34,824 bases of DNA from Bacteroidota bacterium (GTDB taxonomy: Bacteria; Bacteroidota; Bacteroidia; Flavobacteriales_F; PHOS-HE28): assembly GCA_963169595.1 (NCBI GenBank), contig CAUJFM010000030.1:1-34824 (forward strand), given 5' to 3'. A model generated the notes under the pieces. The model was not told where the DNA came from. It searched no databases and saw only the letters and a list, made by a program, of their open reading frames with translations. Shown in pieces: positions 17,048 through 22,962 of this stretch. The number at the start of each line of letters is the position of its first letter. Within the stretch, counting starts at the first letter, position 1. The position numbers were made by a program, and so were the translations under genes.

Positions 17048-17737
17048 ATGAAGTTCGGCGTGGTGACCTTCCCCGGTTCCAATTGCGATGAGGACATGAT
17101 CAACGTCCTGGAGTCGCTCACCAGCAAACCCGTGGAGCGTCTCTGGCACAAGGAGCATGACCTCCGCGGCGTGGACATGGTGGTGCTGCCCGGCGGGTTC
17201 TCCTACGGCGACTACCTGCGCAGTGGGGCCATCGCGCGCTTCTCGCCCATCATGCAGGAGGTGGCCGCCCATGCCGCGAAAGGTGGCCTGGTGTTCGGGG
17301 TGTGCAACGGGTTCCAGGTGCTGTGCGAGGCCGGTCTGGTGCCGGGTGCACTGCTCCACAACGCGGGCCAGAAGTTCATCTCGAAGAACGTCCACATCCG
17401 CCGCGGCACCGCCAACACGGCCCTCACGAACGCTGTGCCCGACAAGGCGCTGAAGATCCCCATCGCGCACGGCGAGGGCCGCTACCACGCCGATGCCGCC
17501 ACCCTGAAGGCGCTGAAGGACAACGATCAGGTGCTCTTCCGTTACTGCGACGCCGAGGGCCGCATCACCGACACCGCCAACCCCAATGGCAGCCAGGACA
17601 ATATCGCCGGGGTGTGCAACAAGGGCCGCAACGTGTTCGGCATGATGCCGCACCCGGAACGGGCCTGCGATGAACGCCTGGGCAACACGGACGGCCGTTC
17701 GCTCTTCGCCTCCCTGTTGAAGGAGGTGCTCGCTTAA
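17048..17737 (+). CDS. purQ: Phosphoribosylformylglycinamidine synthase, glutaminase subunit
   Basis: 229 residues, the size of a stand-alone PurQ. It begins [16 protein letters not shown], the family signature. The class-I glutaminase triad is intact: nucleophile Cys86 in F-G-V-C-N-G-F-Q, with His202 and Glu204 in [19 protein letters not shown] and P-I-A-H-G-E-G-R-Y are also present. It releases ammonia from glutamine for the PurL synthetase subunit in step four of purine synthesis. Many Bacteroidota instead use a long fused PurL, so a separate purQ implies small PurL and PurS elsewhere. Its stop overlaps the stop of the convergent CotH gene (shared TTAA). Confidence 0.95.
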
Positions 17738-19794
17738 GGAACCGTCACCCGGAGCCGCGGGGCGATGGTGCCCATCCGGGAAAGGTCGGCGACCTGCACC
17801 ACCGGGCCTCCGCGCACACCGCGCCATCCAGCGAACTCATGACCTGCGGCCGGCTCGATCGCCAGCGTGGCCGGTATCCCCGAAAGGCATAGCACCTGGC
17901 GACGCCCAGGAGGCAGTGCCAGGCCATTCAGCAGCACACGGCCCTGATCGGGTGGAGGCACCTCCACGGTCACGCGTTCCACCCGCCGTCCCGTTCGCTG
18001 TCCGAGGTAGGTGAACAGGTGCTGGGGGCGCTGGGAAACGAAGGCCTTCATCGCTTCCAAGGAGGCCGTGGGGGAGGGCCGGTCCAGTTCGTTGGACCAG
18101 CGGGCCTGGTCGGCTTCGAGCAGGTGTGCGTCCGCCGCGTGGATGCTGTCCGCGAGGTGGATGAGGTGGTCGGTGGCCCACGCCGAGGCCTGCAGTGCCG
18201 TGAGGCGGGCCAGCAGGCGCACTTGCAGGTCCGGATGACCGAGCAGCTGCGGGATGAAGGGTGTCTCCGGCTGGCTGGCGGCGCACATCCGCTCCACGCT
18301 GTTCTCATCGGCCGGTGCCCAGAGGTCCAGGTCGAAGAGCACCCACCGCCAGCGTCCACCCGGCATCCGGGGGCGGTAGCAGCGCACGTTCAGGTCGTGG
18401 TCCGCGCGGCCCGTGTACAGGTCCATGCAGGCCAGGTCGATGAGGCTCGCCAGGTCCAGCCAGGCTTCCAGGCTGTCGACTGGAGCGCCTGCTAGCAGGG
18501 CATCCCGTGCCGCCAGGAAACGCTCGTCGTTGCCCGACCGTTCCACCAGGGCAGGACCTTCCAGCACGTCCACGGCCTCGGCGCCACTGCATTGGGCCAG
18601 CCATTGCGCATCCTTGGGCGGCATGCGCCGGTAGAGCCCCCAGTGCGTGCCGTTCAGCCAGAGGTCCACCGGTGCGGAAGGCTGCACCTCCAGGGCGAGA
18701 CCATGCTGCTGCACCACCACCTCCATCAGCCGGTTGCGCAGGTAGGCGTGCGGACCGGCATCGGCGCGCAGCATCAATTCATCGCAGCGGGTCCCGTCCG
18801 CGAAGGCGAACAGCGCATCCTCCTCCGCGTACAGCTTCAACGACCGTTTGGCCAGCCCCCGTGAGCCGCTGCCGCTGATCCGCAGCTGCACAGGGGACAT
18901 GCGCCCATCGATGTCCTGGAAATGACCGGGTCGTTCCCAGAGGGCGCCTTGGCGGGTGTGGTTGGCCTGGGCACCGCTCACGAGGATCCCGAGGCTGTCG
19001 CTCCATAGGTGATGCGGGTCGGCCACCAGGTCCACGCGTTCCACCGGGCGTTGCTGCACATCCACCACCACGCAGCGCTCGGGTCCGGCCAGCTTGCCCG
19101 GCGCAACGACCTGGGCGCGCAGCACCGAGGTCCGCTCCACAGGGACCGGTCCGATGGCGGTCCGCGCTTCAGCCCGTGAGGGGTCCGATCCGTCCAGGGT
19201 GTAGCGGACGGCACATCCCTCCGGCGCCACCAGACGAATGGCGCAGGGACCGGCCAGGCACGCATCGAGGCCTTCCACCTCGGGCATCGGTGCACGGCCA
19301 CGCAGCGGTCCTTCTGCGCCGGCGCGGTTCGCCAGTCCGGGGCTGGTGCGGGTGAAGAAGCTCCATTCCGCAGCACCATCGGGCAGGCGGCCCACACCCA
19401 CGTCGAACGGCAGGGACGGGTAGGTGAAGAGGTCGCTGATGGTGAAGCCGTCCGCTGCGATGAGCAGCACCGTGCCGCCCGTGCGGTCCAGGGTGAAGCC
19501 CAGGTGCTCGGGTCCGCGCTCGGGATGCGCATCCGCCAGCAGCACCAGGTGGGCCTTGGGTGCCAGCGTGAGCGGGGCATCGATCACATGCTGCCGGCCC
19601 TGATAGGCGATGCGCATGCCGGCCAGCTGTGCGGTGCGGTTGCCAGCGTTGTACAGTTCGATCCAATCCGGTGTGCCGCCGTTCACCTCCAGCGCATGCT
19701 GGTTGGAGGCCAGCAGCTCGTTGATCACCACACGGGGCTGTGCATCGGCCAGGAAGGCGGAGAGCAGGAGGCCGATGGATGACGCGATACGCAC
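17734..19794 (-). CDS. Secreted lamin-tail / CotH-kinase-like protein
   Basis: 686 residues with a GTG start at 19794 giving the signal peptide M-R-I-A-S-S-I-G-L-L-L ending A-D-A-Q. Residues about 20-150 form a lamin-tail-like domain (V-I-N-E-L-L-A-S-N, D-W-I-E-L-Y-N-A-G-N). About 185-240 resembles a chitobiase-type C-terminal beta domain (Y-T-L-D-G-S-D-P). About 250-570 matches CotH: S-G-S-G-S-R-G, K-R-S-L-K-L-Y, R-N-R-L-M-E, L-N-G-T-H-W-G-L-Y and F-D-L-D-L. The tail (about 590-686) is an additional beta-rich module. Family knowledge: CotH is an atypical protein kinase in Bacillus spores, and related exported proteins are found fused to lamin-tail domains in Bacteroidota. No T9SS signal is evident. 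Its kinase activity is untested. Confidence 0.85.
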   Translation of the reverse strand: MRIASSIGLLLSAFLADAQPRVVINELLASNQHALEVNGGTPDWIELYNAGNRTAQLAGMRIAYQGRQHVIDAPLTLAPKAHLVLLADAHPERGPEHLGFTLDRTGGTVLLIAADGFTISDLFTYPSLPFDVGVGRLPDGAAEWSFFTRTSPGLANRAGAEGPLRGRAPMPEVEGLDACLAGPCAIRLVAPEGCAVRYTLDGSDPSRAEARTAIGPVPVERTSVLRAQVVAPGKLAGPERCVVVDVQQRPVERVDLVADPHHLWSDSLGILVSGAQANHTRQGALWERPGHFQDIDGRMSPVQLRISGSGSRGLAKRSLKLYAEEDALFAFADGTRCDELMLRADAGPHAYLRNRLMEVVVQQHGLALEVQPSAPVDLWLNGTHWGLYRRMPPKDAQWLAQCSGAEAVDVLEGPALVERSGNDERFLAARDALLAGAPVDSLEAWLDLASLIDLACMDLYTGRADHDLNVRCYRPRMPGGRWRWVLFDLDLWAPADENSVERMCAASQPETPFIPQLLGHPDLQVRLLARLTALQASAWATDHLIHLADSIHAADAHLLEADQARWSNELDRPSPTASLEAMKAFVSQRPQHLFTYLGQRTGRRVERVTVEVPPPDQGRVLLNGLALPPGRRQVLCLSGIPATLAIEPAAGHEFAGWRGVRGGPVVQVADLSRMGTIAPRLRVTVP

Positions 19795-19826: not shown

Positions 19827-19970
19827 TCAAAGGGCCTTGCGGGTGACGAAGTACCGCCAGGCCACGATGGCCTTCTGGAGCTTGGTGAGCCGCGTGAGGT
19901 CCTTGTCCCAGAGCTTGGGCAGCAGCAGCCGGTTCAGGCGGGCGAGCAGGCGGAAGAACGCGCGTTCCAT
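19827..19970 (-). CDS. Conserved small basic protein of 47 residues
   Basis: ATG at 19970 and TGA at 19827-19829 give 47 residues. It is strongly basic, with two amphipathic stretches: F-F-R-L-L-A-R-L-N-R-L-L-L-P and K-L-Q-K-A-I-V-A-W-R-Y-F-V-T-R-K-A-L. I recall proteins of this size and the same closing pattern (K-L-Q-x-A-I-x-x-W-R-Y-Y-V-T) across Bacteroidota, often auto-named 'SsrA-binding protein' although they lack the SmpB fold. It starts 3 bp after the CDF transporter stop, so it is probably co-translated with it. The function is unknown. Codon use matches its neighbours and the reading frame has a clean start and stop. Confidence 0.75.
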   Translation of the reverse strand: MERAFFRLLARLNRLLLPKLWDKDLTRLTKLQKAIVAWRYFVTRKAL

Positions 19971-19973
19971 GGC

Positions 19974-20900
19974 TCAGTGGTGCTGGAGGTCACAGGGCTC
20001 GTGGGCCCATTCCAGTTCGATGGTGGCGTGGTGGATGCCCAGCGCGTGCAGCTCATCCCGCGCCTTGCACTTGATGGCCTGGGCCTGCGGAAGGTCCGCC
20101 GCGTCCACCACGATGTGCACGGTATGCACCACGAAGCTGCCATCGAGCGTCCACGTGTGCTGGTCGTGCAGGTCCTTCACATGGGGGATGGCCATGAGGC
20201 GTGTGCGCACCTCCTGCATGTCAAGGCCCGCCGGGATCTCCTGCATGAGGATGCCGGTTCCCTTCCGGAGTGTGCCGAGGGCATTCACGAGGATGAACAC
20301 GCTGATGGCCACGCTGAGCAGGGGGTCCATGATGGTCCAGCCGGTGAAGTGGATGATGACCGCACCGAGCAGCACGGCCGCCCAGCCGAGGACGTCCTCC
20401 AGCAGGTGCAGGTAGGCACCGCGTTCGTTCAGGGTGCCGCCGCCATGGAGCTTCCACGCCGCCAGTCCGTTCATCGCCAGACCGAACAGGGCGATGCCGA
20501 TCATGCCGGTGGCGTCGGGCGCGCCCGGGTCCCACAGCTTGGGCACGCTCACGGACAGCATGATCACGGACCCGATGATCAGCACCACGCTGGTGAGCCA
20601 GCCGCCCAGCATGCTGTACCGGCCATACCCGTAGCTGTATTGCGCATCCCTCCCCCGCAGGGCCACGCGCTGCAGGTACCACGCGGTGCCCAGCACCAGG
20701 CAGTCGCCGGCATCGTGCAGGGCATCGGTCAGTACGGCGATGCTGTGGGTCCAGAGACCGCCGGCCACTTCCACCCCGGTGAAGGCCAGGTTGATGAGGA
20801 AGGCCGTGCGCAGCGCCCGCGCACCCGCGGCGTTCACATGGCCATGCGGATGCTCATGGGGGTGATGGCCCGCGTGATCATGAGCATGGACGTGCGCCAT
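19974..20900 (-). CDS. Cation diffusion facilitator (Zn2+/Co2+/Cd2+ efflux)
   Basis: 308 residues. The N-terminus is His-rich (11 His within the first 21 residues), followed by six TM helices and a cytoplasmic C-terminal domain (from about 215) with the ferredoxin-like alpha/beta pattern. The transport-site residues are complete: Asp59 and Asp63 in TM2 (T-D-A-L-H-D) and His165 and Asp169 in TM5 (H-L-L-E-D), the HD-DD arrangement typical of zinc exporters of the CzcD/ZitB group. It exports divalent metal in exchange for protons at the inner membrane. More His residues lie in the C-terminal domain and at the very end (D-L-Q-H-H). It lies 18 bp after dnaG with its own -7 box 4 nt before the ATG. 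Metal specificity is inferred. Confidence 0.92.
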   Translation of the reverse strand: MAHVHAHDHAGHHPHEHPHGHVNAAGARALRTAFLINLAFTGVEVAGGLWTHSIAVLTDALHDAGDCLVLGTAWYLQRVALRGRDAQYSYGYGRYSMLGGWLTSVVLIIGSVIMLSVSVPKLWDPGAPDATGMIGIALFGLAMNGLAAWKLHGGGTLNERGAYLHLLEDVLGWAAVLLGAVIIHFTGWTIMDPLLSVAISVFILVNALGTLRKGTGILMQEIPAGLDMQEVRTRLMAIPHVKDLHDQHTWTLDGSFVVHTVHIVVDAADLPQAQAIKCKARDELHALGIHHATIELEWAHEPCDLQHH

Positions 20901-20918: not shown

Positions 20919-22871
20919 TCACCCCACGATGACCCGGCCCGTGCGCTTGGCCAGTTTCACTTTGATTGGCTCAAGTCGCATTTTCTCAGCAAGGATCACC
21001 AGTTGGTCTTCATACGAAGTACAAGAAAGTAGCTTCTCAGCCAGTTCCTTCAGCATACGATCCAACCGGCGCTCCTTCAGGATGTCGATGGCCTCCTCCA
21101 GCGCATGATAGAGCTGTTCGTTCTCGCGCTTCACATGGATCTTGTGGCGCTCCTTCCAGTTGGGGCTCAGCACGTGCCGTTCGGTGAGCAGGTCGATCGC
21201 GGTGCGGCGCCAATGCTCCTGGTCATGGCCTACATACCGGCCGGGGTCCACGGCATGGCCCAGGTTGCGGGTGTGGCGGTAATCCAGGTAGATCTCGCGG
21301 AACAGCGGGTCGTCGAAGAGGATGTCGTCGTGTGCGAGCAGCTCGAACATCAGTTCGGCCAGGCTCATCTCGTCCTCGGCCGGATTGCCGTGCTCGTCCT
21401 GCACCGGCACGCGGACCTGCTCATGGCCGTAGGCCAGCAGCATTCGCAGCAGGTCGCGTTCCTGCGGCGTGGTGCCGAGGTCCTCGACGGTGGGCTGCGG
21501 CGCGGCGATCTCCGGGGCCACCAGTTCCTCCGGCACGGCCTCTTCGCCGCCCAGCTTCTTCCGGAACTGCCGCCGCAGCACCTTGTTGGTCTCGCTGATC
21601 AGCGCCTGCTCGGGGATCTCCAGCAGCCGGCTGCACTGCTGCAGGTAGAGCGAGCGCAGCACCTGGTCGGGCACCAGGGCGATGCTCTCCACGATGTCGT
21701 GGATGGCGGCCGCCTTCTTCACCGGGTCGTTACCCACGTCCTGCATCAGCAGCCCGGCCTTGAACACCAGGAAATCCTGCGCGGTCCGCGTCAGGTGGTC
21801 CAGCACCTCGCTGCTGCTGTGGCCCTTGGCGAAGCTGTCGGGGTCCTCCCCCTCGGGGAAGGTCACCACCTTCACGTTGAGGCCTTCCTTCAGCACCAGG
21901 TCGATGCCGCGCAGGCTGGCCTTCATCCCCGCCGCATCGCCATCGTAGAGGATGCACACCGTGGGCGCGTAGCGCTTGATCAGGCGCACCTGATCCTCGG
22001 TGAGGCTGGTGCCGCTGCTGGCCACCACGTTGGTGATGCCCGCCTGGTGCAGGCTGATCACATCGGTGTAGCCCTCCACCAGGTAGCAGAGCTGCTGCTC
22101 CACGATGGCCTTCTTCGCCAGGAAGATGCCGTAGAGCGAGCGACTCTTGTTGTAGAGCGCGCTCTCGGGGCTGTTGAAGTACTTGGGCAGCTTCTTGTCG
22201 CTGCGCAGCGTGCGGGCACCGAAGGCGATGGGTTGACCACTAAGCCCCTGCACGGGGAAGGTGACGCGTCCGGCGAAGAAGTCCCAGGCCGTGCCGTCCT
22301 CGCGCCGCTTGATCCAGCCGGCCTTCTCCAGCACCTCGGGGTCGAAGCCGTGGGCCAGCGCCGCGCTGGCGAAGGTGCTGCCCTGCTCGGGCACATAGCC
22401 CAGCTGGAAGGCGCGGATGGTGGCATCGGTGAAGCCGCGCTCGTGGAAGTAGGAGAGGCCGATGCGGCGGCCCTCGTCCGTGTTCCAAAGCTGGTCCACG
22501 CTCCAGTTCAACGCCCACTGCTGCACCACGGCGAGGCTCTCGCGCTCGCTCTGTTCCAGCTGCTGTTCCGGTGTGCTCTCTTCCTCCGGCAGCTCGATCT
22601 GGTAGCGCTTGGCCAGCCAGCGGATCGTCTCCACGTAGCTGAGGTGCTCGTGCTTCTGGAGGAAGGTGATGGCATCGCCGCTCTCCCCGCAACCGAAGCA
22701 CTTGAAGATGCCGAGGTTGGGGCTGACGTTGAAGCTGGGCGTCTTCTCGTTGTGGAAGGGGCACAGGCCCAGGTAGCGGGGGCCTTTGCGCTTCAGCGCC
22801 ACGAACTCGCCCACGACCTCCTCCACGCGGACGGCGTCCTTCACCTGTTGGATGGCGTGCGGAGAGATCAT
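20919..22871 (-). CDS. dnaG: DNA primase
   Basis: 650 residues. The start at 22871 gives M-I-S-P-H-A-I-Q-Q-V, the family beginning; the frame is open 20 codons further, through the promoter. The CHC2 zinc finger has Cys37, His40, Cys58 and Cys61 (C-P-F-H ... C-F-G-C). The catalytic core (about 110-370) includes the TOPRIM motifs V-E-G-Y-T-D-V and L-Y-D-G-D-A-A-G-M. The C-terminal region (from about 430) is the variable helicase-binding part. It makes RNA primers at the replication fork. The last ~35 codons (20951-21050) fall to about 44% GC with many A/T-ending codons, unlike the rest of the gene. Length is normal for Bacteroidota primases. Confidence 0.96.
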   Translation of the reverse strand: MISPHAIQQVKDAVRVEEVVGEFVALKRKGPRYLGLCPFHNEKTPSFNVSPNLGIFKCFGCGESGDAITFLQKHEHLSYVETIRWLAKRYQIELPEEESTPEQQLEQSERESLAVVQQWALNWSVDQLWNTDEGRRIGLSYFHERGFTDATIRAFQLGYVPEQGSTFASAALAHGFDPEVLEKAGWIKRREDGTAWDFFAGRVTFPVQGLSGQPIAFGARTLRSDKKLPKYFNSPESALYNKSRSLYGIFLAKKAIVEQQLCYLVEGYTDVISLHQAGITNVVASSGTSLTEDQVRLIKRYAPTVCILYDGDAAGMKASLRGIDLVLKEGLNVKVVTFPEGEDPDSFAKGHSSSEVLDHLTRTAQDFLVFKAGLLMQDVGNDPVKKAAAIHDIVESIALVPDQVLRSLYLQQCSRLLEIPEQALISETNKVLRRQFRKKLGGEEAVPEELVAPEIAAPQPTVEDLGTTPQERDLLRMLLAYGHEQVRVPVQDEHGNPAEDEMSLAELMFELLAHDDILFDDPLFREIYLDYRHTRNLGHAVDPGRYVGHDQEHWRRTAIDLLTERHVLSPNWKERHKIHVKRENEQLYHALEEAIDILKERRLDRMLKELAEKLLSCTSYEDQLVILAEKMRLEPIKVKLAKRTGRVIVG

Positions 22872-22889
22872 GGATGGCGGAGCGGGGCG

Positions 22890-22897
22890 CGAATTTA
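22890..22897 (-). promoter_or_regulatory. -7 box (TTCG variant) of dnaG
   Basis: TAAATTCG on the minus strand lies 18 nt before the dnaG ATG. No -33 TTTG is at the expected spacing. Confidence 0.45.
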
Positions 22898-22962
22898 CCG
22901 GTTCACGCGTGCTGTTCCGGAGGAGGAACAACGCTCAGACCCCGTCCCAGAAATACAAGCTC

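Follow-up and report, generated by a model that had tools for sequence, protein, structure and literature searches.

Several described proteins offer points of comparison for the short protein considered here. YidD, a small membrane-associated protein encoded by a core gene, begins with a basic amphipathic helix followed by a proline, and small proteins such as MntS of E. coli tune cation transporters. Many ribosomal proteins are about as short, carry a basic charge and show conservation all round. SmpB (PF01668) is an OB-fold protein of about 150 amino acids, and there are Bacteroidota proteins of 45-53 amino acids, with the shape and closing motif of the present one, which are said to carry the label 'SsrA-binding protein' in public databases. 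Finally, the ribosomal protein bL38 of Borrelia, which has been compared with its F. johnsoniae counterpart, is part of the 50S subunit and includes beta-strands (PMC10618245).

The window (the whole stretch of DNA that was analysed, 34,824 nucleotides) is contig C30 of a 3.6 Mb genome in 404 contigs, in which the small open reading frame occurs once. The gene and its neighbours are as follows:

19827..19970, minus strand: 47-codon gene for a small basic protein (translation, codon statistics, conservation in class Bacteroidia)
19974..20900, minus strand: CDF cation-efflux transporter with Cation_efflux and ZT_dimer domains (Pfam PF01545, E 1.4e-37, and PF16916; TIGR01297)
20919..22931, minus strand: DnaG primase, next upstream (Pfam PF01807, PF08275)
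17734..19794, minus strand: LTD/CotH-domain protein, next downstream (Pfam PF08757, PF00932)

The reading frame runs on the minus strand from an ATG at 19970-19968 to a TGA at 19829-19827 and encodes 47 amino acids (MERAFFRLLARLNRLLLPKLWDKDLTRLTKLQKAIVAWRYFVTRKAL). The initial annotation had described a clean short gene 3 bp past the CDF stop, and this is accurate: the CDF gene lies directly upstream, with exactly 3 bp (GCC) between its stop codon at 19976-19974 and the ATG. The closing pattern given there, K-L-Q-K-A-I-V-A-W-R-Y-F-V-T, was also found, although it actually extends to ...VTRKAL and is read from the minus strand. Codon-position statistics are coding-like, with GC contents of 0.64/0.38/0.96 at the three positions that resemble those of the CDF, DnaG and PurD genes, and codon usage fits the gene's own frame only (+0.83 bit per codon; the other five frames are negative). 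These statistics and the conservation described below rule out a spurious frame, and the small open reading frame is a real gene. Readthrough from the CDF gene was also considered since the two frames coincide in the window, but congeners have the two genes 1, 2, 4 or 5 bp apart; with the frame relation thus changing, no readthrough fusion is conserved.

Conservation across the Bacteroidota, as originally suggested, was apparent in every draw of genomes. A direct protein search recovered an open, alignable frame from 39 of 58 relatives; the draw included 34 further genomes of the same genus, and all but one of them (33) carry it. A profile of 27 sequences found the family in 64 of 346 class genomes, and a broader profile of 80 sequences in 76 of 396 (27 of 198 genera). 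Within one family (f53), 109 of the 121 genomes carry the gene, representing 108 of the 120 genera. One genus of that family (g57) has a uL15 that agrees with 7jil_L, the ribosomal chain of F. johnsoniae, in 144 of 150 positions counted on the alignment (96% identity), which makes Flavobacterium the most likely identity of g57 and Flavobacteriaceae that of f53. All 35 matches in the phylum draw fall in the same class, and a scan of 84,980 named species genomes yielded 95 loci, of which the 80 kept are all from Bacteroidota and span Flavobacteriales, Cyclobacteriaceae, other Cytophagales, Cryomorphaceae, Flavobacteriaceae and Capnocytophaga; no match fell outside class Bacteroidia. Over 38 congeneric copies pN is 0.25 and pS 0.55, with 47% of the differences at third positions, and the gene is accordingly under purifying selection within the genus. 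Flavobacteriaceae-type lineages, and several within the Cytophagales, retain it as a core gene. Some genomes nevertheless do without it, so that it is not strictly essential throughout: it is missing from 12 of the 121 f53 genomes and from a complete congener genome (G217), where the LTD/CotH gene comes straight after the CDF gene.

The encoded protein is strongly basic (pI 11.6; net charge about +9), and copies across the family are 47-53 amino acids long with net charges of +6 to +13 and about half of their residues hydrophobic or aromatic. N13, P18 and T43 are invariant and F6, L9, A10, L17, D24, L28, V42 and L47 nearly so, with the C-terminal consensus AxVAYRYWVTxNAL. The window copy deviates at two near-invariant positions, with F41 in place of W and K45 in place of N. 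No conserved Cys or His was found among the 80 members. Searches with the window protein gave no match to Pfam or NCBIfam up to E 10, to PHROGs or to PDB sequences, and none was found in 50,697 phage and 72,556 plasmid records; the 80 members gave scattered chance-level matches only against Pfam and NCBIfam. Weak PDB profile matches to subtilisins (E 0.4-0.8), obtained with a narrow alignment, disappeared with the broad one. The description of a real, conserved, uncharacterised basic protein is borne out. By these searches the proteins form a Bacteroidia-specific orphan family that lacks a model in the curated libraries searched, and in this the family is of a familiar kind, that of conserved small orphan proteins.

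The fold predicted by AlphaFold2 from an 80-sequence alignment consists of two helices, residues 2-16 and 30-46, joined by a loop with the invariant proline, and contains no strand. The mean pLDDT of the model is 83.8 and its pTM 0.55, with no residue reaching a pLDDT of 90; Foldseek against the PDB returned nothing below E 2. The helices are encoded as follows:

19923..19967, minus strand: helix 1 coding part, residues 2-16 (AlphaFold2; hydrophobic moment; conservation)
19833..19883, minus strand: helix 2 coding part, residues 30-46 (AlphaFold2; per-position information)

Helix 1 is amphipathic and basic, with near-invariant F6, L9 and A10 and invariant N13. Its mean hydrophobic moment is 0.64 (Fauchere-Pliska scale, residues 3-16) and its mean charge +3.6. 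The lipid-discrimination score 0.944*muH+0.33*z, for which the usual lipid-binding cut-off is 0.68, is at least 1.17 in 80/80 members, so that a strongly amphipathic basic helix is a property of the entire family. Among 3322 14-mers taken from nine further proteins encoded in the window, not one reached the H, muH and charge of helix 1. Conservation in this helix is offset by about 107 degrees from the centre of the hydrophobic face: one half is fixed (F6, L9, A10, N13 and, just beyond, L17), and positions 5, 8, 12 and 16 take any aliphatic residue. This is the pattern to be expected if one side rests on protein and the other on lipid. Helix 2 is the most conserved segment (consensus AxVAYRYWVTxNA), with more than 3.1 bits at positions 33-43 and 45-47 of helix and tail except for position 35 (2.83). 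It has almost no conservation moment, being conserved on all faces, as would a helix that is contacted on every side within a larger assembly.

Taken together, the amphipathic and basic character of helix 1, the all-face conservation of helix 2, the variable Cys and His and the absence of a match in the 70S ribosome lead us to propose, tentatively, that the modelled protein is a cytoplasmic adaptor at the membrane surface, with helix 2 buried in a larger complex. Helix 1, being cationic and amphipathic, would rest against the cytoplasmic membrane on its inner side; the exchangeable aliphatic residues at positions 5, 8, 12 and 16 would dip into the lipid, and the conserved edge (F6, L9, A10, N13, L17) would pack against helix 2. 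Helix 2 and the tail AxVAYRYWVTxNAL could then be docked inside a larger housekeeping complex, a hypothetical partner, and the protein would neither handle metal nor serve as a subunit of the CDF transporter. We infer both the membrane step and the complex step, and amphipathic basic helices bind RNA too. YidD (PF01809) offers a functional analogy only: it shares with the small family a basic amphipathic helix and a proline, but it differs in length and in its C-terminal motif, the small family has no conserved Cys, and PF01809 is absent among the Pfam matches of the 80 members at E up to 1.

The main rival to the membrane-surface adaptor is an RNA-binding role, in which K/R-rich helices would make the protein an RNA- or ribosome-associated factor, either a factor acting transiently in translation, assembly or hibernation, or a ribosomal protein held only by loose binding. 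The high pI and charge and the core-gene distribution fit such a factor, as does the resemblance to the many ribosomal proteins of this size that are basic and conserved all round. However, a search with the 80-sequence family profile at E up to 10 returned no PDB chain, although the set searched contains the 70S ribosome of F. johnsoniae (7jil, plus four further entries sharing its uL15). The uL15 of 7jil is 96% identical to that of a genome (G095) which encodes the small family, so that close relatives of F. johnsoniae within its genus have the protein, and the absence of the family from the F. johnsoniae 70S structures disfavours a stoichiometric ribosomal protein. The large hydrophobic and aromatic fraction also argues against RNA binding, and a ribosomal or translation gene was never seen as a conserved neighbour. 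We consider this role unlikely. Identity with bL38 or with another 70S component is ruled out by the profile search, which included a positive control. The bL38 of F. johnsoniae and Borrelia is likewise small, missed in annotation and found in Bacteroidota (PMC10618245), but that of Borrelia has beta-strands, whereas the small family is all-helical in prediction and matches no ribosomal chain.

A second possibility is that the small protein serves the CDF transporter as an accessory or regulatory peptide, and here the gene neighbourhoods are informative. Gene order in the window's genus is DnaG, CDF, small gene and LTD/CotH protein. Among the 80 loci fetched, a DnaG homologue and an LTD/CotH homologue each occur nearby in 27 of the 30 genus-type loci; the homologue of the LTD plus CotH-kinase-domain protein lies downstream in most genus loci, at varying distance. 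In nearly all species of the genus the small gene comes immediately after the CDF stop, with gaps of -8 to 28 bp overall and of 1-6 bp in most. A CDF gene was found nearby in 28 of the 80 loci, all of the genus type, and none was found within about 6 kb in the fetched loci of other lineages. Neighbours there include a tail-specific protease, FeoB with a MurF-alanine racemase fusion, biotin carboxylase with DUF3109, MutS with a phosphopantetheinyl transferase, a dienelactone hydrolase with tricorn, topoisomerase IV with a Fic protein, a phosphoribosyltransferase, an M56 peptidase and an Na/Ca exchanger, and no neighbourhood common to the lineages was seen. Since neighbours outside the genus are unrelated and vary by lineage, the 'coupling' to a zinc transporter proposed in the initial annotation is a lineage-specific gene order: it holds inside the genus and fails elsewhere. 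A partnership with a zinc transporter as a general role is ruled out by these neighbourhoods.

Cation transporters do stand near the small gene in three lineages (FeoB, Na/Ca exchanger and CDF; the L080-L126 group, L124, L184 and the window), with FeoB divergent in one Cyclobacteriaceae group and the exchanger near in some Flavobacteriaceae. This could be read in favour of an accessory peptide, but it is a weak pattern, recognised post hoc and without conserved metal ligands in the small protein, and most other contexts contain no metal gene. The variation of Cys and His disfavours a metal-ligand role, and the conserved hairpin upstream of the Flavobacteriaceae copies resembles an intrinsic terminator rather than a metalloregulator box. 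An accessory peptide of the CDF transporter is therefore very unlikely.

This hairpin belongs to a tiny transcription-unit-like element that lies upstream of the small-family gene in 12 Flavobacteriaceae-like loci (L167, L168, L173, L176, L177, L178, L187, L189, L190, L191, L192, L195). The element comprises an ORF of 16-23 codons for a hydrophobic peptide of the pattern M[IM]TLAKLxIDIIxxIxSII, preceded in several loci by a promoter-like TATATCTTC and followed in most by a near-perfect hairpin, GTAAAACTTA..TAAGTTTTAC, and a T-run, the end of which overlaps the promoter-like site of the small-family gene. The start and length of the peptide look conserved across genera. A metalloregulator operator had been considered for this position and was rejected, the palindrome being the terminator-like hairpin with its T-run over the promoter-like site. 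In addition, a tRNA-Arg (anticodon ACG) lies within about 1 kb of the small-family gene in about a third of the scanned Flavobacteriaceae loci (L166, L170, L172, L176, L178, L182, L188, L190, L207, L125), and a Flavo-1 RNA (RF01705, 77 bits), a family for which we know of no assigned function, was detected in one genome of Flavobacterium type (L206:7518-7594, plus strand), where about 3 kb separate it from the gene.

A mobile or toxin-like protein, of toxin-antitoxin, phage or plasmid origin, could also be small, basic and amphipathic, and one genome (G062; contigs C34, C14 and C2) has several small-family matches, one of them split into two reading frames. These extra copies possibly reflect duplication and decay, or assembly redundancy. 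The gene is single-copy in nearly all carriers and kept genus- to family-wide, and neither the phage and plasmid records nor PHROGs contain a match, which makes such an origin highly improbable.

The so-called 'SsrA-binding' proteins share with the small family their length class, lineages and the closing motif W/Y-R-Y-[WYF]-V-T-x-N-A-L, but the name has no support from SmpB similarity, and the real SmpB lies elsewhere in the genome. The literature searched contained nothing relevant on the label, and a neighbouring tmRNA or known non-coding RNA as the source of the name was dismissed, the scanned loci containing only the tRNA-Arg and the single Flavo-1 RNA. If used for this family, the name would, by sequence, be wrong. 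That the protein is a trans-translation factor related to SmpB, as the name alone would have it, is scarcely credible: PF01668 matches none of the 80 members at E up to 1, two predicted helices over 47 residues share only a basic character with the OB-fold barrel, a full SmpB is encoded on another contig (G000:C273:6900-7319, E 1.1e-51), and no tmRNA was found in the neighbourhoods scanned. Identity with SmpB itself is ruled out on the same grounds.

To summarize, a single-copy gene that about 90% of the f53 genera sampled have kept, and whose product has three invariant residues and a tail that hardly varies, must have a general job in these bacteria. It is possible, if doubtful, that Flavobacteriales and part of the Cytophagales share a core membrane-associated complex of their own and that the protein is a small, near-universal subunit of it; if so, this subunit would have been overlooked owing to its short length and the missing family model. 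The zinc-transporter link, local to one genus, cautions against inferring function from operon neighbours. Naming the small family would let existing transposon, ribosome-profiling and proteome data from Flavobacterium be read for this gene.
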